Source: Magnetospirillum fulvum MGU-K5 (GTDB taxonomy: Bacteria; Pseudomonadota; Alphaproteobacteria; Rhodospirillales; Magnetospirillaceae). From it: a stretch of 46,130 nucleotides of DNA. The translations under genes and the position numbers were made by a program. The notes beneath the pieces were generated by a model. The model did no database searches, was not told where the DNA came from, and saw nothing but the letters and a program-made list of their open reading frames with translations. Location: contig NZ_AQPH01000022.1 of NCBI RefSeq assembly GCF_000442515.1, forward strand, positions 1-46,130, given 5' to 3'. Below are positions 11,495 to 22,624 of this stretch, piece by piece. Numbering within the stretch: position 1 is the first letter of the stretch; each line of letters starts with the position of its first letter.

Positions 11495-12244
11495 GTGGAA
11501 GGTTGGACTATACCGTTCAGGCAGGCTTGCGCCCGCCCCGGCCCCATGACAAAGCGGTCGGCCATGACCCGATTGCTCAACATCACCTTGTCTCCGCCCT
11601 GGCTGATCGCCCGCCTGCCGGGCCTGTTCCGGATCGCGGGCTGGTCACTCAATCGTCCCGGCCTGACGATAGCGGACACGGTGGCGTGGCTTGAGGTGCG
11701 CGATGCCGACCTGCCGCTCGGCGTCGATCCGCTCGATCTGCTTAACCGCAGGCTGGCCGAACAGGGATTGGACAACGCAGCCGGTCTGATGACGGCCCGC
11801 GATGTTCGTCGCTTTTGCGTCGCGGCTTCGGCCGACGAGTCGATACGGGCCGAGTCCCTGGTCACGCTGGGGCTGACCAACGGGTCGATCCTGGACGAAC
11901 AGGGCCAGCCGTCCGGTCCGGTCGGAGCGTTTCCGGTTGGCACCATCAATCTGCTGGTGGCGCTGTCGGAGCCGCTTGGCGACGGAGCGTTGCTCGAGGC
12001 GCTGGCGCTGGCGGCAACCGCGCGAACCGCCGCCCTGCTCGCGGAAGGGGGACGGATCGTCGGCACCGGCACCGATTGCATCCTGGTCGCCTGCCCGCCT
12101 GCCGCCAGAGGTCAAGATTATGCAGGTCTGCACACCGCAATCGGCCGTCACCTCACCAAAGCGGTTTATCGGGCCGTCCGTCAGGCCCGCCATGAGTGGG
12201 AAACGGAAAACGCATCGCTGCTCCGACAGATCGGCCTGGCCTGA
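11495..12244 (+). CDS. cbiZ: adenosylcobinamide amidohydrolase, CbiZ family
   Basis: A CbiZ-family protein of up to 249 residues. Family features are RPGLTIADTVAWLEVRDADLP, VTLGLTNGS and VGTGTDCILVACP. CbiZ cleaves the amide of adenosylcobinamides to give adenosylcobyric acid, so that imported foreign corrinoids can be rebuilt into the host's own cobamide. It stands divergently from the riboswitch/btuB operon and complements uptake with salvage. The start is uncertain: GTG 11495 has a good GAGGGG five bases upstream but adds an Arg/Pro-rich non-conserved leader. ATG 11546 or 11564 (before RLLNITLSPPWLIARL) fits the family better. The riboswitch promoter on the other strand must lie within or next to its 5' end. 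Confidence 0.88.
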   Translation: MEGWTIPFRQACARPGPMTKRSAMTRLLNITLSPPWLIARLPGLFRIAGWSLNRPGLTIADTVAWLEVRDADLPLGVDPLDLLNRRLAEQGLDNAAGLMTARDVRRFCVAASADESIRAESLVTLGLTNGSILDEQGQPSGPVGAFPVGTINLLVALSEPLGDGALLEALALAATARTAALLAEGGRIVGTGTDCILVACPPAARGQDYAGLHTAIGRHLTKAVYRAVRQARHEWETENASLLRQIGLA

Positions 12245-13098: not shown

Positions 13099-13109
13099 TG
13101 TCTAAGACA
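13099..13109. promoter_or_regulatory. palindrome TGTCTAAGACA upstream of the heme oxygenase gene
   Basis: A perfect inverted repeat with one central base, having the same TGTC-N3-GACA shape as the palindromes near the puc genes. It lies 89 bp before the heme oxygenase ATG. A weaker relative (CGTCTTTGACA) lies about 50 bp further on. It may be an operator for the bph cluster. Confidence 0.35.
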
Positions 13110-13187: not shown

Positions 13188-13814
13188 ATGACGACAGGGG
13201 ATTCCCTCTATAATGATTTGCGCCCAAGATTGCGCGATGCAACCAAGGCGCCACACCACCGCATTGACCACCGCCCTTTGATGGCTCCGCTGGTCCGGGG
13301 CGATTTGACCGCCCGCCTTTATGGCGATGCCCTGCTGGCGCTGTATAGCTTCCATGCCCCAAGCGAGCGGGCGTTCGCGGCGTTTCTGAACGATCCCGAT
13401 GCGGTGCCCCCGCCGCGCAGCGCTTGGCTCGCCGCCGATCTCGACCGCCTGGGCCGGACGGAAATCACCCAGTCCGCAATTGGGTCGGTCTGGTCCGGAC
13501 AGCCCCCCGCCTCCCCGTCCGAATATATCGGCATGCGTTATGTGATCGAGGGTGGATCGCTCGGCGCCCGGGCGATTCTCGCTCCCTTGATCGAGCGTCT
13601 TCCGTCCGAATGTAAGTCCGTCACCCGCTTTTTCGATGGTCAGCAGGAGGAACGCGACTGGCTAAACTTCTGGGCCTTGGCCGAACGCTTGGGGCCGCTT
13701 GATGCCGATGCGACCATCCATGCGGCAACGCGCTTTTTCGGCGAGATCGAATCCCTGGCCGATCGGCGTTGGCAGGAAAGCCACGGCACCGGATCAGCCT
13801 CTACCAAGAAGTAG
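13188..13814 (+). CDS. bphO: biliverdin-producing heme oxygenase
   Basis: A 208-residue heme oxygenase. It opens heme to biliverdin, the chromophore of bacteriophytochromes. The proximal-His region LRDATKAPHHRIDHRPLM (His23/His24) and the distal-helix Gly motif YVIEGGSLGARAI are typical. It is first in a cluster with the bacteriophytochrome gene (14622), so it very probably supplies that protein's chromophore rather than serving iron acquisition. The next gene begins about 90 bp downstream. Confidence 0.9.
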   Translation: MTTGDSLYNDLRPRLRDATKAPHHRIDHRPLMAPLVRGDLTARLYGDALLALYSFHAPSERAFAAFLNDPDAVPPPRSAWLAADLDRLGRTEITQSAIGSVWSGQPPASPSEYIGMRYVIEGGSLGARAILAPLIERLPSECKSVTRFFDGQQEERDWLNFWALAERLGPLDADATIHAATRFFGEIESLADRRWQESHGTGSASTKK

Positions 13815-13902: not shown

Positions 13903-14577
13903 GTGCCGAATAAGACCAATCCTCTTTACAACGAAAATGCGGGAATTACCCCTCTGCCGTGTGATGGTCGGGAAATCGACGCGGCGTTAAGAGCGGCGGC
14001 TCGGTGCTACGAGGCCAACCCGTATTTCATGGCGCGCTATGCCGAGCGCGGGGAAGCGTTTTCGCGCTCGGATGGCGGCTATATGGTGACGCTGGCCTCT
14101 CATCCCCTGGCTTACGTGATCCAGCAGATTAAATGGCTTGGTGTTCTGCTCGCGTCGCGCGGGATGCCCCGCTGGCTGCTGGAGAGCCATCTCGACCTGC
14201 TCTACGAAGAATTATCGGCCGCGATCCCTAAGCGCCGTATCAAATATCGTAAGCTGCTCAAGGCGGCGGAGGTTCTGCGCGAAGCCCGGCACGACTGGGT
14301 TTCCCAAACCGATTTTGAAACGCTGGCCGCGACGTTCGCGGCCAATTCGGGCGGCGGACTGGCACATGGCGGAGAAATGCTGGTCAGCGCCGTTTGTGAC
14401 GAGTGTTGCGGCATCACCAAAGCAGTCCCCAGTCTGGTGGTGTGGCTGGGCGATCCCACTCGCTTTTCGGCGCAATGGTGTGCCGCTTTGAATCAGACCT
14501 TGGACAACGCCCGCGCCATGGCCGCACGAAATGGCAGCCCGTCGGCGAACCTTGAGGTTTCGGCGGGAGCCGCGTGA
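13903..14577 (+). CDS. conserved hypothetical protein in the bacteriophytochrome cluster, with a CxxCC motif
   Basis: A 224-residue soluble protein lying between the heme oxygenase and bacteriophytochrome genes. The core (REIDAALRAAARCYEANPYF, then MARYAERGEAFSRSDGGYMV) is helical. The C-terminal part contains a Cys cluster, VCDECCGITKAVPSLVVW. I believe similar unnamed proteins occur beside phytochromes in other alphaproteobacteria, but this is memory only. No known domain is assigned. The GTG start at 13903 has no good ribosome-binding site. The frame extends back to 13867 after a TAA, with AGAGGA nearby, so the true start may be a rare codon slightly upstream. It could be a partner or modulator of the photoreceptor. 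Confidence 0.8.
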   Translation: MPNKTNPLYNENAGITPLPCDGREIDAALRAAARCYEANPYFMARYAERGEAFSRSDGGYMVTLASHPLAYVIQQIKWLGVLLASRGMPRWLLESHLDLLYEELSAAIPKRRIKYRKLLKAAEVLREARHDWVSQTDFETLAATFAANSGGGLAHGGEMLVSAVCDECCGITKAVPSLVVWLGDPTRFSAQWCAALNQTLDNARAMAARNGSPSANLEVSAGAA

Positions 14578-14621: not shown

Positions 14622-17600
14622 ATGAGTCCCCTTGATACGTCCTCGTGCGAGACCGAGCCGATCCGCTATCCCGGGGCGGTTCAACCGCACGGTGCCTTGT
14701 TGGTCCTGGACAGCGACCAGCGAACCATCGAGGCCGCCAGCGATTCATGTCAGACGATGCTGGGCCTGTCGGCCGAAAGCTTGCTTGGCCGTCGGATCGG
14801 TCTGGTCGTCGGGTGGGAGGCCGAAACCGCCCTGCTCGCCCCTCAGACCGAGGGATTGGAGCCACTGGTTCCCCTCGAGATCAACGGAACAGCGTTCTAT
14901 GCCCGCTCCAGCATGAACGATGCCGGTCTGATCGTCGTCGATATCGAAGCCGCTCACCAGGACGCGGCGACGATCCGGCGTTTGATCTATAATTGCCGCC
15001 GCGATCTGGCCCATCTGCGTCGGCTGAACGACATTCCCGAGATCACGCAGAGCGCGACCGAGATGATCCGCGACATCACCGGATTCGATCGGGTGATGCT
15101 GTATCGCTTCGACGAAGCGTGGAACGGCGCGGTGATCGCCGAAGCCCGCGCCGACGACATCGAACCCTATCTGGGGCTCAATTTCCCGGCCAGCGACATT
15201 CCTCGTCAGGCCAGGGAATTGTTCCAATTAAGCAAAGTGCGGATGATCCCCGACGTCTGCTACACCCCCTCGGGCCTGATCGCCCGGCGTGAAGCTCGCT
15301 CGATCGATCTGGGACGGTCGTGCCTGAGAAGTGTTTCGCCGATCCATATCGAGTACCTCACCAACATGGCGGTCCGTTCGACGATGGTCGGGGCCTTGGT
15401 GGTCGAAGGGGGATTGGTGGGGGCTGGTCTCGTGCCAGAACACGCGAGAGACCCGGTTCTTCGGTCCGGCCGAGCGCGACACGCTGGGCTGGATGTTCGA
15501 AGACATCGCCGCCTTGATCGAGGCGACCCAGATCCGGCAACGGCGCGAGCGGGAATATGGCTTGGCCCTGCACCGCCGTCGGCTGGTCGATGCGATGGGG
15601 GTGCATGATTTCAAATCCCTGATGCAGCACGAAAGCCGGGCTGACCTGCTTGAAGTGGTGGGTGCCGACGGCTTCGCCCTGCTGGTTGATGACTCGATCC
15701 AGACGATGGGAGTAACCCCCGACGCGGACCGCATCCGGGACTTACAGACACGGCGCCGGGCATTGCAGACCGACCCGACCTTCTTCGCTTCCAGTGCCCT
15801 GACCCACGATCTGGGCGCGCCCGAATGCAATGACGGGGTGGCGGGAGCGATCTTCGTCTCGCTGCGAGATCGTCCCGATATCACGATGATCTGGTTTCGC
15901 AACGAGCGCTATCACTCAATACGCTGGGCCGGTGATCCCGAGCACGCCCATTTTGTCGATGAAAGCGGGCGCATCTCGCCCCGGAAATCATTCGCGCAGT
16001 TTCTTCAGAACATTCGCGGCCAATGTCAGGCCTGGAGTCAGGCGGAACTGGATTCTGCGGGCGAACTGGGCTCGTTGATCGAAATCGAAGTCCAGCACCG
16101 CTATAAAGCCGAATTGAATATCCTTCAGACCGTTCTGTCCCGCGTCAACGAGGCGATCTTGGTGACCGAGCCGAATTTCGAGCCGGGCCAGAGCCAGAAA
16201 ATCCTGTGGGTCAGCGAAACCTTCGAGCGATTAAGCGGCTTTAACGCCGAAGAACTGACGGAAATGCGGGCTGACATCATGTTCGGCCCCAAGACCGGGG
16301 CCGCCGACCTTGCCCGCATCGGCGAGCAATTCGCCAGGCGCGAAGCGGTTCGGGTCGAGGTGTTGCGACAAACCAAGGACGGCAAGCCGTTCTGGGTCGA
16401 TATGGATATCCTTCCCGTACTCGACCGCACCGGCCAGGTCGCGCAATTGATTTCGATCGAACGGGACATCACCGCGCGCCGCCAGATGGAGGAATCGCTC
16501 CGGAAACTCTCGACCGCGATCGAGCAAAGTCCCGCTTCGGTGGTGATCACCGATCTCGACGCCAAGATCGAGTACGTCAATCCGCGCTTCACCGAGGTTA
16601 CCGGATATAGCGCCGCCGAGGTGATCGGCAAGAATCCCCGCATTATCCAGTCGCAGGAAACGTCGCGGGAAACATTCCTGGCGCTGTGGAACACGTTGAT
16701 GAACGGCGACATCTGGAGCGGCGAACTGCTGAACCGGCGCAAGAACGGCGAGCTGTATTGGGAGGAAAGCCACATCGCTCCGGTTAAAAATCCGGACGGA
16801 ATCGTCACCCACTATGTCGCGGTCAATCTCGACATCACCGAAAGAAAGAACGCGGAAAGAGCCTTAAGGGCAAGCGAGGCTTTCACCAAGACCATCCTTG
16901 ATTCGATTCCGGAACATATCTGTGTTCTTGATCCGCAAGGCCGCATCGTTTCGGTCAACAAGGCTTGGTGCCAATTCGCCGAAAACAATGAGGCGGCGTG
17001 GCTGGCCGAGAATTCGACGTCGTTCAGCTACCGCGACATCTGTATTGCCTCGACCGATCAGGCCGATAGCAGAATTGCGATTGATGCCTGGGCCGGGATT
17101 GAATCGATTCTGAAAAAGACCTCCGATCATTTCGTTCTCGATTATTTGTGCGACTCCCCCGACACCCCCCGCTGGTTCCGAATGAACGTCTATCCGATGA
17201 TCGCGCCGTGCGAAGGAGCGGTGGTCGCGCACGAGAACATCACCGAACGCAAGCTGATGGAAATCAGCCTTGATAACGAGCGCACTCAATTGCGCACTTT
17301 GCTGGAGACGATTCCCGATCTGGTGTGGCTGAAGACTCCCGAAGGGGTCTATCTCACCTGCAACACCGCATTCGCCCTGTTTCTCGGGGCGACGGCCGCC
17401 GAGATCGTCGGCAAGTCCGATCGCGACTTTCTCGACGAAGAGCAGGCGGCGCTTTTCCGCGACAAAGATCGCGCCGCCATTGCCGCCGGTCGACCCTGTA
17501 TCAGCGACGAAACCATGACCTTTGCCCATGATGGACACCGGGCCTTCATGGCGACAATCCGGACCCCGATGCTCGATCATTCGGGAGCTTTGATCGGCGT

Positions 17601-18399
17601 GCTCGGCATTGCCCGCGATATCACCGAACGGATGGAAGCCGAGGCCAGGATCAAGACGATCAATCTTCAACTGGCCGAGCAAGGGCGCAAGCTGGAACAG
17701 CGCGTGATCGAACGCACCGAGCAATTGCGCCAATTGGCGGTCAAAACCACCCTGGCCGAGGAACGAGAGCGTCAAGCCATCGCCGCCGATCTCCATGACG
17801 ATCTCGGCCAGATGCTACATGTCGCCAAGATCAAGCTGGGCACGCTGTCAAAATCCCTGCGCGACGGCTGCTTTTCCGAAAGCCTGATCGCGGACATGAA
17901 CGCAATCCTGTCCGAGGCAAGCGGGATGGTTCGGTCGCTGACCTCTCAACTCAGCCCGCCGGTGCTGAAGGATCTCGGGCTGGTTCCCGCGCTGGGCTGG
18001 TTGGCCGACGAGATGCGGCGGATCTACAGCCTGAACGTCACGGTCGAAGATGACGGGGCGCCGAAACCTCTTAGCGGGGCACAATCGGCGATCTTGTTTC
18101 GTGCGGTGCGCGAGTTGTTGATCAATGTTTCGAAACACGCCCGGACCGACCGCGCCGAGGTCAGGGTGCAGCGCGACGATAGTCAGATCGTTATCACGGT
18201 CGCAGACAAAGGCATCGGCATGACGGACCCTCGCGGGGCGACTCATTCGCCCAAAGGGTTTGGACTGAGCAGCCTGCGCGAACGCATTGCCTTCCTGAAA
18301 GGGGCGGTAACGATCGACAGCAATCCGGGGGGAGGAACCGTGGTGACCCTGCACATGCAGCTTGAGTCTGCTCCCGCCGCGGCCTCGGAGGGAGCATGA
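14622..18399 (+). CDS. bphP: bacteriophytochrome histidine kinase (PAS-GAF-PHY-PASx4-HisKA_3), with one apparent frameshift
   Basis: Red/far-red photoreceptor kinase of about 1258 residues once a one-base shift is repaired. The biliverdin-linking Cys9 is followed by EPIRYPGAVQPHG. The GAF domain shows PASDIP (Asp192) and SPIH (His242). The PHY tongue has PRKSF near 15980. Four PAS/PAC units follow (about 16125-16490, 16500-16860, 16870-17250, 17280-17640). A NarX-type dimerisation domain then has phospho-acceptor His at 17794-17796 (ADLHDDLGQ), and a HATPase domain follows. Frames switch at 15419-15423, a run of five G; with four G the protein reads VEGGLVGLVSCQNTRE without a break. The two frames taken separately would end at about 15608 and begin at about 15331. 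The stop overlaps the regulator's ATG. A sequencing error is likelier than a true null gene. Confidence 0.93.
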
Positions 18400-19058
18400 C
18401 ACCGATTCGCGTGATTCTCGCCGACGATCATCGAATGTTCCGCGAGGCCTTGCGGGTGCCGCTAGAGGCCGAAACCGATATCGCCATCATCGGCGAATCC
18501 AGCACGGGCGAAGAGACTCTGTCGATCCTGACCCGAATCTGTCCCGATGTTCTTCTGCTCGATATCGGCCTTCACGATATCAATGGCATCGATGTCGCCC
18601 GCAAGGTCGCCAAATTATATCCCGCCGTCCGCGTTATCGCCCTCTCCGGCTATGCAGACCGGCTGTATATCGAGGAAATGCTGAAGGCCGGGGCGCGGGG
18701 CTATGTCGTCAAATCGGCCGGAGCCGATGAACTGATCTCTGCCATTCGCGCCGTCGCCGCCGGGCATAGCTTTTTGTCGCAAGAGGCGACCCAGGTGATG
18801 ATCCAGCGCATTCAGGACGACGCCAAGGCGCTGACTCCCCCTCCCAGCGTGATCAGCCCGCGTGAACGCGAAGTTCTCTGCCGACTGGCCAACGGGTTCC
18901 GAGCCGCCGAAATCGCCGCCAGGATGGGAATCACCGTCTCGACGGTCGAAGTTCACCGCCGCAACATTAAGCGGAAGCTTGGCCTTCACACCACGGCGGA
19001 GCTGACGCGTTACGCGATGCGCGAAGGTCTCGTCTCGGCATACGAAACCGGAGCCTGA
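18396..19058 (+). CDS. NarL/LuxR-family response regulator, partner of the bacteriophytochrome
   Basis: A 220-residue two-component regulator. The receiver domain has acidic pocket Asp10/Asp11, phospho-acceptor Asp56 (LLLDIGL) and Lys106. A GerE-type helix-turn-helix follows (SPREREVLCRLANGFRAAEI, recognition helix STVEVHRRNIKRKLG). It overlaps the kinase stop by four bases (ATGA) and matches the NarX-type kinase class, so it is almost surely the cognate partner. Its target genes are unknown; the LH2 operon nearby is an attractive candidate. Its last 49 bp overlap the 3' end of the MerR/B12 gene on the opposite strand. Confidence 0.95.
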   Translation: MTPIRVILADDHRMFREALRVPLEAETDIAIIGESSTGEETLSILTRICPDVLLLDIGLHDINGIDVARKVAKLYPAVRVIALSGYADRLYIEEMLKAGARGYVVKSAGADELISAIRAVAAGHSFLSQEATQVMIQRIQDDAKALTPPPSVISPREREVLCRLANGFRAAEIAARMGITVSTVEVHRRNIKRKLGLHTTAELTRYAMREGLVSAYETGA

Positions 19059-20011
19059 GCTTTGTGCTCGCTTCGCCAGCCGGCCAAGGCCGGGCCAATT
19101 TCGTCAAGCTCGTCGAGGAAACGCACCCCGGCCATCGGCTTTAGACGAGTTACCCCCAGTCCGCCCACCCAAATCTCGACGGAGGGGTCGAGCCGACTGC
19201 GCAAGCTGTTGAGAAACTGGGTGGCGTTGCGGGCGGGATAGGCGATGCTGAACGACAAGCCGACGATATCGACCTCGCAGGCGGTGATGGCGGCAACCAA
19301 TTCGGCCATCGGAATCTGCGAGCCGAGGCGGATGCACGAGGCCCCTTCCATCGACAACATCGCTTCGGCCATCAACAGACCGATCGTGTGAACCTCGCCC
19401 GGGGCCGTCGACATCAGAACGCGGGGCCATCCGGACGAACCCGAAACCGTCCGGATCGCATCGTGCAGAACGTCCAGCACCGCCTCGGTATAGATGTGTT
19501 CCTCGAACATCCGGATATCGCCCCGCAGCCAGGCTTCACCGATGAAGAGGGTTAATTCGGATAAGGTCTTCCCAATGAAATCGGCCAGACCGTCGCGGCC
19601 CCATTGCTGCTTGAACAGTTCTTTGAGGCGAGGAATATCGTGTTGCAAGACGGTATCGAGGACTTGCAACGAAAAGTCGGTCGGTTGAGAGGACATGGAC
19701 GGCGAGCTTTCCCAAACCATCCGCTCCAGCGTTTCCATGTCCAGACCGACGACCTTGCCGGGGCGCAGACCCGCGCCGATCAATCGACGAATCAGCCGCA
19801 GCCGGTCGACTTGTTCGGCCGGGTAGATTCTATCGCCATTTTCGTCACGATCCGGGCATGGAAAGCCATAGCGGGTTTCCCATTTGCGAACGACCTCTTT
19901 GGTCAGTCCGGTTTCTTTCTCGATAGCGGCGATAGAAACAGCAGCACCCGAGGAGTCCGGCTGGTGCGGACTGGTCGGATCGGCGGCGATCTTGGGGGGG
20001 AATTCGGACAA
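19010..20011 (-). CDS. MerR-family regulator with B12-binding domain, CarH/LitR-like photoreceptor
   Basis: A 333-residue protein. The N-terminal MerR helix-turn-helix spans about residues 24-90 (VSIAAIEKETGLTKEVVRKW). A four-helix B12-capping domain (about 110-190) contains the CarH signature W-x9-EH, here Trp161 ... Glu171-His172. A Rossmann B12-binding domain has ExHxxG, Glu206-Val-His208-Thr-Ile-Gly211. In CarH, AdoCbl bound through these residues makes a light-sensitive repressor tetramer that falls apart in green or blue light. The start is a TTG at 20011, with AGAGG about ten bases upstream. Convergent with and overlapping the phytochrome response regulator by 49 bp. Photoreception is inferred from motifs; targets could include the puc genes. 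Confidence 0.9.
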   Translation of the reverse strand: MSEFPPKIAADPTSPHQPDSSGAAVSIAAIEKETGLTKEVVRKWETRYGFPCPDRDENGDRIYPAEQVDRLRLIRRLIGAGLRPGKVVGLDMETLERMVWESSPSMSSQPTDFSLQVLDTVLQHDIPRLKELFKQQWGRDGLADFIGKTLSELTLFIGEAWLRGDIRMFEEHIYTEAVLDVLHDAIRTVSGSSGWPRVLMSTAPGEVHTIGLLMAEAMLSMEGASCIRLGSQIPMAELVAAITACEVDIVGLSFSIAYPARNATQFLNSLRSRLDPSVEIWVGGLGVTRLKPMAGVRFLDELDEIGPALAGWRSEHKAQAPVSYAETRPSRIA

Positions 20012-20586: not shown

Positions 20587-20760
20587 TTACTTCGTGGCGT
20601 GCTTCGCGGCCGAGGCGGCCAGGAAGTTGTAGCCCGGAACGGCGAGGACGAAGGTGTGGACGGCCAGAGCGGTGGCCAGCACGGCGATCCAGATCACGGG
20701 CAGCCAGGTCGACGGATTGATGACCAGCCAGATTTTGTAATCGTCTTTCGGATTGCTCAT
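20587..20760 (-). CDS. pucA: LH2 light-harvesting complex alpha subunit, copy 1
   Basis: A 57-residue membrane antenna peptide (start [19 protein letters not shown] at 20760; AGGGG seven bases upstream). It binds bacteriochlorophyll in the LH2 ring. After Met removal, Asp6 is the B800 ligand known in P. molischianum and His34 (LAVHTF) the B850 ligand. Position 45 is Phe (PGYNF) where the crystallised P. molischianum alpha has Trp, a hydrogen-bond donor to the B850 acetyl group. Loss of this bond usually shifts absorption to shorter wavelength. It follows pucB1 after a 29-bp gap. No clear T-tailed terminator is seen after it. Confidence 0.95.
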
Positions 20761-20789
20761 CTGAATTCCCCTAAAATATTGGAGCGGGC

Positions 20790-20930
20790 TCAAAACCAGG
20801 GCTTCCAGGCCCACACCAGCACATGGGCGGCGAGAGCGAAAATGACGAAGGTCAGGAAAGTGGTCTGGAACTGGCCATGAAATTCCAGAGCTTCCTGTTC
20901 GGTCAGCCCCGACAAGCTTCTTTCAGCCAT
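20790..20930 (-). CDS. pucB: LH2 light-harvesting complex beta subunit, copy 1
   Basis: A 46-residue antenna peptide too short for most gene callers ([20 protein letters not shown] ... [11 protein letters not shown]). GGAG lies eight bases before the ATG at 20930. After Met removal, His17 and His35 are the bacteriochlorophyll-binding histidines and Trp44 the usual hydrogen-bond donor to B850. It pairs with pucA copy 1 directly downstream. It differs from copy 2 at several positions in the N-terminal half and membrane helix, so the copies may form slightly different rings. Confidence 0.95.
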
Positions 20931-20953
20931 GTCTCAATCTCCGAATTTTAGAC

Positions 20954-20969
20954 GGAGCGAAATCGCTCC
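20954..20969 (-). other. short perfect hairpin in the leader of pucB copy 1
   Basis: GGAGCGA and TCGCTCC form a seven-base-pair stem around AA, 24 bases before the pucB1 start on the minus strand. It may mark an mRNA processing or stabilising site between the two puc pairs. Confidence 0.4.
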
Positions 20970-20991
20970 CCTGAATCACTCAGACTTGAAT

Positions 20992-21033
20992 GAAAACGGG
21001 CGGCGCAGAGAAACAAACCCCAAACGCCGCCCG
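20992..21033 (-). terminator. terminator after pucA copy 2
   Basis: On the minus strand CGGGCGGCG (21033-21025) pairs with CGCCGCCCG (21005-20997) and is followed by TTTTCATT. This is a strong intrinsic-type terminator between the two puc pairs. Leaky termination here would make copy 2 more abundant than copy 1. Confidence 0.75.
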
Positions 21034-21067
21034 CCTCCATCAGTATAATCCCTCAGAAGAGAGGATT

Positions 21068-21241
21068 TTACTTCGTGGCAACCTTCGCGGCCGCAGAGGC
21101 CAGGAAGTTGTAGCCCGGAACGCTGAGGACGAAGGTGTGGACGGCCAGAGCGGTGGCGAGCACGACGATCCAGATCACGGGCAGCCAGGTCGACGGATTG
21201 ATGACCAGCCAGATCTTGTAGTCGTCTTTCGGATTGCTCAT
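21068..21241 (-). CDS. pucA: LH2 light-harvesting complex alpha subunit, copy 2
   Basis: A 57-residue alpha antenna peptide, nearly identical to copy 1 (differences at a few membrane and C-terminal residues, for example [11 protein letters not shown] and SVPGYNF). It keeps Asp6 for B800 and His34 for B850, and likewise has Phe at position 45 in place of Trp. It is followed at once by a strong hairpin terminator. Together with pucB2 it is promoter-proximal in the tandem array, so it is probably the more highly expressed pair. Confidence 0.95.
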
Positions 21242-21296
21242 GGAAAAGTTCCCCCAGAATAGAAAGTCAGAATTTAAAGGTCAGGATCCTGTCGGA

Positions 21297-21437
21297 TCAG
21301 AACCAGGGCTTCCAAACCCAAACCAGCACGTGCGCGACGGCGGCGAGGATCAGGAAGGCGCTGAAGGTGGTCTTGAACTGATCGTGAAACTCAACAGCTT
21401 CTTCTTCGGTCAGGCCCGACAAGGTTCTCTCAGCCAT
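21297..21437 (-). CDS. pucB: LH2 light-harvesting complex beta subunit, copy 2
   Basis: A 46-residue beta antenna peptide (MAERTLSGLTEEEAVEFHDQ ... AHVLVWVWKPWF). From memory it differs by only a few residues from the beta chain of the P. molischianum LH2 crystal structure, which is the basis for the genus suggestion. His17 and His35 are present. It is the first gene of the tandem array and faces a long AT-rich upstream region with several palindromes, the nearest at 21542-21552, about 105 bp before its start. No pucC-type assembly gene is in the window. Confidence 0.96.
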   Translation of the reverse strand: MAERTLSGLTEEEAVEFHDQFKTTFSAFLILAAVAHVLVWVWKPWF

Positions 21438-21541
21438 GTTGTCTTCTCCAGTGTTGTGGCTGGGCTGCACTTTCATGCTGTACCCGGCCCTCATTAACGT
21501 TGGGTAATGTTGCACTGGCCGAGGCGAGAGTCAATTAAATT

Positions 21542-21552
21542 TGTCCTGGACA
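21542..21552. promoter_or_regulatory. palindrome TGTCCTGGACA upstream of pucB copy 2
   Basis: Perfect inverted repeat with one central base, in a T-rich context (AAATTTGTCCTGGACAGAAT). It lies 105 bp before the pucB2 ATG, a good place for an operator. Confidence 0.5.
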
Positions 21553-21805
21553 GAATCTTTGTTCGAACTCGCCAATTCCCCACCGCTCCCGACCGCTCCC
21601 TCCCTCCGTGTCATCCCAGAGCGAGGGACGGATCGAGGCGAGGATCGCAAAATCGAAGATCGATTTAGTACGTTGTTATATATCGATAATTTCATAATTA
21701 AGGCTTGATTCATAACCACAAAGGGACGAAGCAAGCCGACCGACCCTCTCCACTCGACCACGGTTCGATCGGACTCATCGTCCGTCAAACGGACGTCGCA
21801 TCACC

Positions 21806-21830
21806 GTAATTTTGTCTATAACAAAATTAC
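21806..21830. promoter_or_regulatory. perfect palindrome with 10-base arms, core TGTCTATAACA
   Basis: GTAATTTTGT (21806-21815) and ACAAAATTAC (21821-21830) are exact reverse complements around CTATA. The core keeps the TGT-N5-ACA spacing of the other palindromes. Long perfect arms in an AT-rich gap favour a regulator-binding site over a terminator. Confidence 0.5.
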
Positions 21831-21906
21831 AATGGGGATGGACAATCGAAGGGGCAGAGGACGGGGGATGCACGTGGGCGGATCGCATCACGCCGCACAA
21901 GCTAAA

Positions 21907-21948
21907 CGAACGGGACCGAGCAAGTCCCGTTCGCACTTAGGGGTTTTT
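21907..21948 (+). terminator. perfect 10-bp hairpin, possible end of an unannotated RNA
   Basis: CGAACGGGAC (21907-21916) pairs with GTCCCGTTCG (21924-21933) around a seven-base loop. Five T follow at 21944-21948, ten bases after the stem. No gene ends here, so it may terminate a small RNA or an antisense transcript. Confidence 0.4.
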
Positions 21949-22146
21949 ACTACAAGCACACCAAAATACTGACGCACAAAACTTAACGACGCCAGTCTTC
22001 GCAGCCCTATAATGCTGGAGCCACGGAACACCCAAAAACGACTTCACCAGATATGATCGAATTAAGATTTACAAATCACGTCTTGGCCCGTCCGTCTCTT
22101 TCGTTGGACAGATCATCGCATCGCCGCCCACCCCCGTCAACGTTTT

Positions 22147-22157
22147 TGTCCAGGACA
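22147..22157. promoter_or_regulatory. palindrome TGTCCAGGACA in the puc upstream region
   Basis: Sequence context TTTTTGTCCAGGACAAAT, an almost perfect longer palindrome. The core is identical to 473-483 and differs only in the central base from 21542-21552. Confidence 0.45.
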
Positions 22158-22374
22158 AATAATTTTTATCCAACCCGGGCAGACCACCAGCACCACCCCA
22201 GCCCGTTCTGCTCCCACCGAACCCTCCACCAAGCGCAAACACAAATCAGTGCCGATTTTCAAGAAAAACATTCTTTAACAAAGATTTAGCATAGATCCGA
22301 TCATAATCACACCACCCTTCACAAGTCACAAATCTCCAAACTCCGCACAGCCCCCCACTTTCCCACCAAATTTT

Positions 22375-22385
22375 TGTCCATGACA
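22375..22385. promoter_or_regulatory. palindrome-like TGTCCATGACA in the puc upstream region
   Basis: A near-palindrome with the same TTTTTGTCC left half as 22147-22157 and a slightly altered right half. It is the member of the set nearest to the gene at 22665. Confidence 0.35.
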
Positions 22386-22624
22386 CATTGGGAGATCGAC
22401 ACACAGGCCGACACAACCTCACCCGCGCGCACGCGCCCCGTCAGCTCCAGGACGGAGACAAACGACCACTCGACCAGCTTGAGCAGGTTGACTATTACAT
22501 TTTTATGACAGAGACTTCGCATCAGGTCCGACACACTGCCGCTCATGGCGAACGAGGCTGACATGCTAGGCCGATACGTAAGTACGAAAATGCCCGTCGG
22601 GCGGTAGCGGTAGCGATTGTCGCG

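Follow-up and report, generated by a model that had tools for sequence, protein, structure and literature searches.

The 46,130-nucleotide stretch of Magnetospirillum fulvum MGU-K5 analyzed here (the window) harbors genes for two putative photosensors next to light-harvesting genes, which raises the question of whether either of them controls antenna synthesis. An earlier note on this DNA had proposed that a bacteriophytochrome kinase and a CarH-like B12 regulator could both do so. Domain searches reproduced the plus-strand order described there, i.e. heme oxygenase, an 'unknown' gene, BphP and a LuxR-type regulator. A CbiZ gene (cobinamide salvage) is located at 11495-12244. The genes of the locus are as follows:

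13188-13814, plus strand: heme oxygenase (bphO), the likely biliverdin source (PF01126, 35.7 bits versus a cut-off of 23)
13903-14577, plus strand: the 'unknown' gene, a globin related to the biliverdin-binding domains of photoglobin and photocobilin, with a C-terminal helical part
14622-18399, plus strand: bacteriophytochrome histidine kinase gene (bphP), frameshifted in the assembly (frames 14622-15608 and 15331-18399)
18396-19058, plus strand: LuxR/NarL-type response regulator (Response_reg and GerE domains)
19010-19058, no strand assigned: 49-bp tail-to-tail overlap of the response regulator and merR genes, shared by all three Phaeospirillum genomes compared
19010-20011, minus strand: CarH-like MerR/B12-binding regulator (333 aa, TTG start; MerR_1 and B12-binding domains)
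20587-20760, minus strand: pucA1, LH2-type alpha chain with Phe at the Trp45 position
20790-20930, minus strand: pucB1, antenna beta chain
21068-21241, minus strand: pucA2, LH2-type alpha chain with Phe at the Trp45 position
21297-21437, minus strand: pucB2, antenna beta chain, first gene of the operon

The 3' overlap noted earlier was recovered: the response regulator frame stops at 19058 and overlaps merR by exactly 49 bp in both sister genomes, too. In two related loci (L028 and L032) the tail-to-tail partner of merR is the globin-like gene instead of a response regulator, and thus compaction is enough to explain the overlap without the antisense coupling that the note considered possible. 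The puc stop codon closest to merR is at 20587; 575 bp separate it from the start of merR, in line with the claimed distance of less than 600 bp. However, all four puc open reading frames are on the minus strand, which places them upstream of merR on its own strand and not beyond it.

The first frame of bphP encodes the PAS/GAF part (PAS_2, GAF) and the second PHY, PAS, HisKA_3 and HATPase_c. All domains of a PAS-GAF-PHY sensor with kinase are therefore present in the window, with one break instead of a single open frame. A single-base length difference relative to both sister genomes was located within 15400-15440, and the sister genes are intact, with 1258 and 1257 codons without a stop. The draft assembly of 178 contigs does not distinguish a real mutation from a sequencing error. 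Of the two postulated photosensor systems, the CarH-like regulator is likely, whereas a working bphP is not supported by this assembly.

The assignment of the minus-strand product to the MerR/B12 proteins by its W-x9-EH and ExHxxG motifs was confirmed by domain search and by the motif positions. A MerR-type HTH (MerR_1, E 9.3e-13) is followed by a B12-binding domain (E 5.9e-12). The protein contains W161-x9-E171-H172 and E206-x-H208-x-x-G211, the motifs for predicted AdoCbl binding and the lower His ligand. W-x9-EH is present in 21 of 21 aligned MerR/B12 proteins, Thermus CarH included. The best PDB match over the full length is CarH (5c8d, E 3.8e-97, with a query profile that includes one Thermus row). 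All four motifs of the light-response signature GxxW, EH, GxxH and GxxxP (SignatureFinder, PMC11796333) are found as GEAW, EEH, GEVH and GSQIP. The GxxH pattern is missing from 8 of the 21 aligned proteins, of which 6 have a candidate operator (see below) at their loci. The residue of the bis-His light state, which we take to be His132 of Thermus CarH, corresponds to Leu162 in the window protein; a His occurs at this position in Thermus only (0 of 19 other aligned relatives). Because of this Leu, photochemistry identical to that of CarH is not to be assumed. The bis-His state is described for CarH, and for CtMerR, which was validated as light-responsive, the authors suggest a possible photochemical mechanism other than this state (PMC11796333).

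Like CarH and class I LitR of Thermus, Bacillus and Myxococcus, the protein combines a MerR DNA-binding domain with a B12-binding part and shares W-x9-EH, ExHxxG and GxxxP. Unlike them, it is linked to an antenna operon, and no carotenoid gene was noted beside it. As its His132 equivalent is Leu, its score with the NCBIfam CarH equivalog model (126.5 bits) lies below the cut-off of 400 and its candidate sites are inverted and not tandem, the protein is by sequence CarH-like but not CarH proper. It is likely a CarH-like photosensory regulator, and the motifs make light sensing by it quite probable. The same protein might instead sense B12 supply or redox state and thereby couple cofactor status to antenna synthesis, which we consider unlikely. 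Such a function would fit the loss of His132, the CbiZ gene of the window and the influence of B12 on photosystem control in Rhodobacter capsulatus, which acts through AerR (PMC5362033). It is opposed by the four light-response motifs and by the light response of CtMerR, and one relative (L134) lies beside an annotated FAD oxidoreductase/DUF1365/cyclopropane-fatty-acid set. Neighboring reading frames of further relatives presumably encode a photolyase (L137) and similar oxidoreductases (L141, L142). Settings of this kind are light-induced, which likewise argues against sensing of B12 status.

Both alpha chains of the puc operon contain Phe at position 45 in all three genomes, whereas Trp is found in the other LH2 alpha chains detected. 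In Phs. molischianum Trp45 is the alpha hydrogen-bond residue (PMC9618040). Due to this replacement of Trp45 by Phe, the operon at 20587-21437 probably encodes a blue-shifted LH3 (B800-820) antenna. The amount of LH3 reportedly increases under low light, and Phaeospirillum molischianum is reported to adjust its LH2/LH3 ratio to light or temperature (PMC5374385). Among the literature matches listed, none names a regulator of this switch.

The region upstream of puc contains four palindromes of the form TTTGTC-N3-GACAAA, at positions kept in three species, together with promoter-like elements and a conserved block:

21506-21534, minus strand: promoter-like TTGACT-17-AACATT, first base of the -35 element 13 bp from the centre of operator 1
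21540-21554, no strand assigned: candidate operator 1, TTTGTCCTGGACAGA, one mismatch, 117 bp from the pucB2 ATG, an equal distance in three species
21811-21825, no strand assigned: candidate operator 2, TTTGTCTATAACAAA, one mismatch
21898-22001, minus strand: 104-bp block located between operators 2 and 3; most of it is unchanged across three species, strong hairpins are predicted for it (-35.3 kcal/mol), and it has no Rfam match at the gathering score
22112-22140, minus strand: promoter-like TTGACG-17-GATGAT, first base of the -35 element 12 bp from the centre of operator 3
22145-22159, no strand assigned: candidate operator 3, TTTGTCCAGGACAAA, perfect
22373-22387, no strand assigned: candidate operator 4, TTTGTCCATGACACA, one mismatch

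These are the only sites with at most one mismatch in the window. Genome-wide, 14 such places were found compared to 4 for a reversed-pattern control; besides the 4 upstream of puc, 8 are located inside open reading frames of at least 194 aa and 2 outside such frames. Identity among the three species amounts to 88.5% inside the operators versus 38% over the puc upstream region. The remaining 15 antenna loci of the three genomes, scanned with about 1.5 kb of flank to either side, show no palindrome at two mismatches, except one site in L102.

The palindrome also accompanies distant relatives of merR, where it was detected with at most two mismatches at 12 of 17 loci in a zone from 350 bp upstream to 60 bp inside the gene. 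These zones contain 15 sites in 6888 bp, compared to 7 in the remaining 155,973 bp of the same loci (binomial 6.7e-18, a value that overstates independence as the loci are related to one another). The association spans alpha- and betaproteobacteria, with perfect copies in Eleftheria, Azoarcus and L141. Among the five loci without a site at two mismatches, L025 and L028 harbor forms with three mismatches, and nothing convincing was found in L032, L137 and L143. The 575 bp preceding merR in the window likewise contain no site with at most two mismatches. Chance neighborhood, in which genome compactness brings unrelated genes into tail-to-tail contact and the palindromes are relics or serve another regulator, would agree with the occurrence of the puc arrangement in only three closely related species. 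It is nevertheless very improbable, given operator conservation far above that of the flanks and the recurrence of the site with merR in both classes.

The CarH operator is described as tandem 11-bp direct repeats nnnnTnnACAn with the half-site TnnACA; for the M. xanthus operator inverted repeats are mentioned, and operator design is called plastic (PMC9304148). The tandem arrangement was not found here, the candidate operator being an inverted repeat. Its half-site is nevertheless that of CarH: with a search pattern that imposed nothing on the three central bases, TnnACA occurs on a strand of all 12 puc sites and all 15 merR sites (27 of 27), in contrast to 4 of 7 background sites and 4 of 10 other genomic sites. 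This indicates that TTTGTC-N3-GACAAA is probably the operator of the MerR/B12 regulator, and from site conservation and recurrence we expect with good confidence that the protein would bind the puc palindromes directly.

The palindromes could alternatively belong to the LuxR-type regulator, which together with the bacteriophytochrome kinase would control puc as BphP2/BphP3-LhfA controls LH4 (pucBAd) in Rhodopseudomonas palustris, with the MerR/B12 protein as a bystander. The layout is similar, as blue-shifted low-light antenna genes lie there beside bacteriophytochromes and a LuxR-family regulator that is needed for expression (PMC6879726), and BphP is intact in both sister genomes. However, the window differs in its additional globin gene and MerR/B12 regulator with four candidate operators, and its bphP is frameshifted. 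Moreover, the palindromes precede merR in Eleftheria, Azoarcus and Comamonas, where no BphP or LuxR-type regulator is annotated within 5 kb. Exclusive phytochrome control thus appears improbable, while both systems may act together on puc. Of the proposal that both photosensors act on the antenna, the part on the MerR/B12 protein is backed by its candidate operators.

The favored and likely reading is that an AdoCbl-dependent light sensor of the LitR/CarH kind binds the puc operators and controls the LH3-type operon directly. The 19010-20011 protein would be both sensor and DNA-binding regulator and would recognize the inverted repeat through the CarH half-site on one strand of each site. In Phaeospirillum, four such operators would have been placed upstream of the neighboring operon, and since they lie there, the regulator is proposed to act directly on antenna synthesis. 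AerR/PpaA, which works with CrtJ/PpsR, is likewise a B12-binding light sensor controlling photosystem genes in purple bacteria; however, AerR acts via its partner CrtJ, whereas the window protein has its own MerR DNA-binding domain and a candidate palindrome.

Operators 1 and 3 each adjoin the upstream end of a promoter-like element, and 228-274 bp farther upstream each is accompanied by a second site. These elements are present in 3 of 3 species as matches to a consensus that suits alphaproteobacteria poorly. The -35 element at operator 1 reads TTGACA in both sisters, but this promoter-like element was matched by script only and is absent from the tool scan, which reported only the one at operator 3. 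Operators 2 and 4 have no promoter-like element common to the three species. The geometry would suit a B12-loaded protein that, in darkness or dim light, is positioned next to RNA polymerase and spans a pair of sites. On exposure to green/blue light, cleavage of the Co-C bond would free the DNA and LH3 synthesis would stop, which would agree with LH3 being a low-light antenna. Activation of puc in dim light is plausible on this geometry but is put forward tentatively.

The opposite sign, i.e. repression of puc in the dark, release by green/blue light and extra sites that strengthen repression by looping, is possible but rather doubtful. Described CarH and LitR proteins are dark repressors (PMC9758184, PMC9304148). 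The stretches scanned at merR contain a site in 11 loci; in 4 of these (G050, G039, Eleftheria, Azoarcus) the -35 of the top-ranked promoter call falls on it, and in 8 that of one of the two top-ranked calls does, although the likeness of the half-site GGACA to a -35 hexamer favors such calls and partly builds them in. By contrast, in all three species the best calls at puc operators 1 and 3 place the -35 outside the operator, 12-13 bp downstream of its centre, and the LH3-like alpha chains point to an antenna that rises in low light.

The globin-like gene might conceivably add a second chromophore to the proposed AdoCbl switch. In an hhalign comparison with the photoglobin globin domain its product scored 36.8 (P 4.2e-5, probability 69.7%, and 40% in another run), a value that none of 300 shuffled profiles attained; the reversed profile and three unrelated ones scored 11.2-15.2. 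Its AlphaFold model (pLDDT 89.7) gave globins as the top probabilities among the best 50 of 182 Foldseek rows (up to 0.51, TM to target 0.49, all E >1), with no photocobilin or phycobiliprotein among these 50. The RGMC motif that defines BBAG-2 (PMC10151467) is replaced by RGMP or KGMP, with GMP in 9 of 9 aligned globin-like sequences. As judged from the profile comparison, the gene is related to biliverdin-binding photoglobins. A heme oxygenase gene is adjacent in 7 of 9 loci and merR is in the cluster in 6 of 9; L037 has neither. Heme oxygenase and globin-like gene occur together in L027, L032, L034 and L035, where no BphP sensor was found in the stretch examined, so that an assignment of the pair to the phytochrome alone is not supported.

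As in photocobilin/photoglobin and BBAG-2 clusters, heme oxygenase, a photoglobin-homologous globin and a B12 protein are kept together in the genome. Here, however, globin and B12 domain are separate proteins, the B12 partner is a transcription factor and RGMC is changed to RGMP. The three proteins might form a split photocobilin, in which the biliverdin-carrying globin docks on the regulator's B12 domain and tunes its green-light switch by red light or redox state; the complex would bridge operator pairs and turn low-light LH3 on in dim light. This is speculative and fairly unlikely, but if true it would represent a transcription switch with two chromophores that governs antenna choice independently of the bacteriophytochrome. 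For bilin-binding globins, whose functions are still to be established according to PMC10151467, the set found here suggests a transcriptional use.

According to PMC9758184, B12 photoreceptors of the LitR/CarH type serve non-phototrophic bacteria as light-dependent regulators, chiefly of carotenoid synthesis. In the phototroph Phaeospirillum, a likely photoreceptor of this type is apparently connected to a light-harvesting operon through four conserved candidate operators, and the choice of antenna would thereby depend directly on green/blue light.

A MerR/B12 protein with CarH motifs had been claimed at 19010-20011 on the minus strand, and reading of the ORF, its domains and its residues confirmed it. 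The GxxW and GxxxP motifs of the published light-response signature are likewise present, and Thermus CarH was the top full-length PDB match in a profile search, for which the profile held one Thermus row. Whereas the readable motifs agree with those of CarH and LitR, no histidine equivalent to His132 of CarH is present, the NCBIfam cut-off for CarH is not reached, and the candidate operators are arranged differently. Because of these differences the protein is, judged by its sequence, CarH-like but not CarH. Relatives of its gene, merR, are few and related to each other. At E 1e-40 a class-wide comparison of 385 genomes found only the window's own, and at E 1e-30 a phylum sample yielded 8 of 398 genomes, the own genome counted. 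In the largely open-access literature searched, none of the papers listed was seen to report control of antenna genes by a CarH-type protein. A photolyase-like ORF, judged by eye, adjoins the merR relative in locus L137, and FAD-oxidoreductase/DUF1365/cyclopropane-fatty-acid genes adjoin relatives in L134 (annotated) and in L141 and L142 (by eye). Such a gene setting is light-induced.

The order heme oxygenase, P0007 gene, bphP, regulator, merR, pucBA, pucBA is shared with two sister genomes, taken as Magnetospirillum (Phaeospirillum) fulvum DSM 13234 and M. molischianum DSM 120. The 49-bp overlap of merR and the response regulator gene described in the earlier note exists and has the same length in both sisters. 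The puc genes are adjacent to merR as stated there, but they are located upstream of it on the same strand and not beyond it. The bacteriophytochrome kinase gene bphP (14622-18399) is also present, but is broken into two frames in this assembly. It differs from both sisters, in which it reads through, by a single base in length within 15400-15440; the frameshift could reflect either a mutation or a mistake in the 178-contig draft. A CbiZ adenosylcobinamide amidohydrolase is encoded at 11495-12244 on the plus strand (PF01955, E 7.8e-38), about 1 kb upstream of the heme oxygenase gene bphO; this B12 salvage gene is located near the gene of a likely B12-dependent regulator.

The alpha chains encoded beside merR contain ...PGYNFL... 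in both copies of all three genomes, and the remaining LH2 alpha chains found contain ...PGFNWI...; the altered residue is position 45 in mature-chain numbering. According to a section of PMC9618040, Trp45 of the Phs. molischianum LH2 alpha chain bonds to the B850 pigment, a second bond in this structure comes from a beta Trp, and loss of such pigment bonds accompanies a blue shift. A passage in PMC5374385, citing earlier work, reports that Phs. molischianum has more LH3, the blue-shifted variant, and less LH2 in low light or cold. Given the change of alpha Trp45, the blue shift on bond loss and the occurrence of LH3 in Phs. molischianum, the puc operon beside merR is probably an LH3 operon.

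A repeat search revealed four copies of one palindrome upstream of puc. With at most one mismatch, TTTGTC-N3-GACAAA occurs four times in the window, always within 850 bp upstream of puc (candidate operators 1 to 4, at 21540, 21811, 22145 and 22373). Genome-wide it is found at 14 places, compared to 4 for a reversed-pattern control: besides the four before puc, eight lie inside ORFs of at least 194 aa and two in neither position. Two of the puc copies lie within short ORFs (85 and 102 aa), a coincidence taken as chance. When up to two mismatches were allowed, each sister showed four copies in the 16.5-17 kb searched, and no further ones. The palindromes coincide in a three-way alignment; in each genome the first lies at a distance of exactly 117 bp from the ATG of pucB2, and identity is 88.5% inside the palindromes versus 38% across the region. 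At two mismatches none was detected in 15 other antenna loci, except one in L102, or in the 575 bp preceding merR of the window. A literature search for the sequence string gave nothing relevant among the matches listed. A candidate operator before bphO (TGTC-N3-GACA at 13099) was rejected, being kept in neither sister. In locus L077 an operator-like site, ATTGTCGTAGACAAA (G000:C21:25097-25111), is positioned 42 bp before an ORF that, from its sequence, is presumably a bacteriohemerythrin; hemerythrin-like ORFs also occur near merR in L025 and L029.

The pattern defined at puc was then sought upstream of distant merR relatives, in a first set of 10 loci and a second of 7 from a new sample. Mismatches in the first set numbered 0 and 0 in Eleftheria, 0 and 1 in Azoarcus, 1 in Comamonas, Caballeronia and genome G039, and 2 in G050 and G051; G049 and G005 showed weak sites (3 each), and the palindrome was absent upstream of merR in L032. 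Five loci of the second set (L138, L139, L140, L141, L142) harbor a site with up to two mismatches, and L137 and L143 have none at this threshold. Both sets together give 12 of 17 loci, with 15 sites in 6888 bp versus 7 in the 155,973 bp making up the rest of the same loci (binomial 6.7e-18, a value that ignores the relatedness of the loci). Of the seven background palindromes, one in L135 and one in L138 match the pattern without a mismatch, at places other than the merR upstream stretch. They may be further targets of the regulator, and the background count is therefore, if anything, too high. The loci were selected for merR, which is what they have in common, and the most likely owner of the palindrome is therefore this MerR/B12 regulator family. 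Part of PMC9304148 describes CarH operators as tandem 11-bp direct repeats with a TnnACA core; the design is termed plastic there, and inverted repeats are mentioned for the operator of M. xanthus. TnnACA is found on a strand in all 12 puc sites and all 15 merR sites, although the pattern left the centre free, compared to four of the seven in the background and four of the ten elsewhere in the genome. For this reason the candidate half-site looks like that of CarH, whereas the arrangement does not.

In all three species operators 1 and 3 are centred 12-13 bp upstream of the first base of a -35-like hexamer, and operators 2 and 4 are situated 228-274 bp further upstream of operators 1 and 3, respectively. 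Of these consensus matches, the promoter-like element at operator 3 was reported by a tool scan, that at operator 1 was not. Such sites could serve activation, with the regulator bridging the paired operators, and activation of puc in dim light is a serious possibility, if short of probable. Classical dark repression of puc by the MerR/B12 protein appears more doubtful. It would accord with the merR promoters, where a -35 on the operator can be read as possible self-repression. Consensus calls were made for the 11 merR loci whose scanned stretch contains a site; the -35 of the best call falls on the right half of the operator in four (G050, G039, Eleftheria, Azoarcus), and a call with this placement is among the two best in eight, but the right half itself resembles a -35 and such calls are partly built in. 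The region upstream of puc also contains a conserved block:

21898-22001, minus strand: 104-bp block, largely invariant in the three species, unlike most of the region

Strong hairpins are predicted for this block (-35.3 kcal/mol) and a promoter-like element precedes it; it is perhaps a small RNA or leader. The only Rfam match, mir-278, was below the gathering score and is taken as chance.

The product P0007 of the gene between bphO and bphP (13903-14577, plus strand) has no significant sequence match in Pfam, NCBIfam or PDB, and the gene occurs in none of 397 other genomes of an even phylum sample. A profile of nine aligned P0007 sequences was compared to the globin domains of photoglobins, proteins of a globin plus a B12 domain (four from congeneric relatives, one from G201). 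Residues 20-114 matched with a score of 36.8 (P 4.2e-5, probability 69.7%); an earlier comparison with four whole photoglobins had given P 2.9e-4 and probability 40%. Controls scored 11.2 (reversed), at most 25.2 (300 shuffled) and 11.2-15.2 (three unrelated). BLASTP of P0007 against one photoglobin found nothing, so the relation is visible in profiles only. The photoglobins used match SasPcob, a solved photocobilin, in both domains, and Asp57 of P0007 may correspond to Asp270 of SasPcob, a residue in contact with biliverdin; photoglobin-like proteins of same-genus genomes were seen in L055, L043, L044 and L045. The AlphaFold model of P0007 reached pLDDT 89.7, compared to 77.8 for a weaker initial model that used 5 sequences. 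In the Foldseek output (50 of 182 rows listed) globins ranked best by probability, with no significant E-value, and none of the rows listed was a photocobilin or phycobiliprotein; neither Foldseek search gave an E of 0.001 or better. An excerpt of Rockwell et al. (PMC10151467) presents the biliverdin-binding BBAG-2 globins as an example of globins that generally occur together with heme oxygenase and B12-binding proteins.

A heme oxygenase gene adjoins the P0007 gene in seven of nine loci (not L028, L037), and merR lies within the cluster in six (not L034, L035, L037). In a family sample of 55 genomes the P0007 gene is present in five, three of them sister species, all among the eight with merR. 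Heme oxygenase and globin occur without a BphP sensor match in the stretch covered in L027, L032, L034 and L035. G039 has merR and no P0007 gene; its heme oxygenase gene is divergent from merR and a photoglobin is 6 kb away. G049 and G050 contain merR without either gene adjacent, with a heme oxygenase match 7 kb off in L025. The previously proposed division into a red-light and a green-light system is thus one possible grouping but not the only one, because heme oxygenase and globin keep company with merR and recur without a BphP match. They may instead serve the B12 regulator. In photocobilins biliverdin is held beside the corrin, as a section of PMC10979010 describes; by analogy, the boldest reading is that the globin and the MerR/B12 protein would constitute a split photocobilin on separate proteins.
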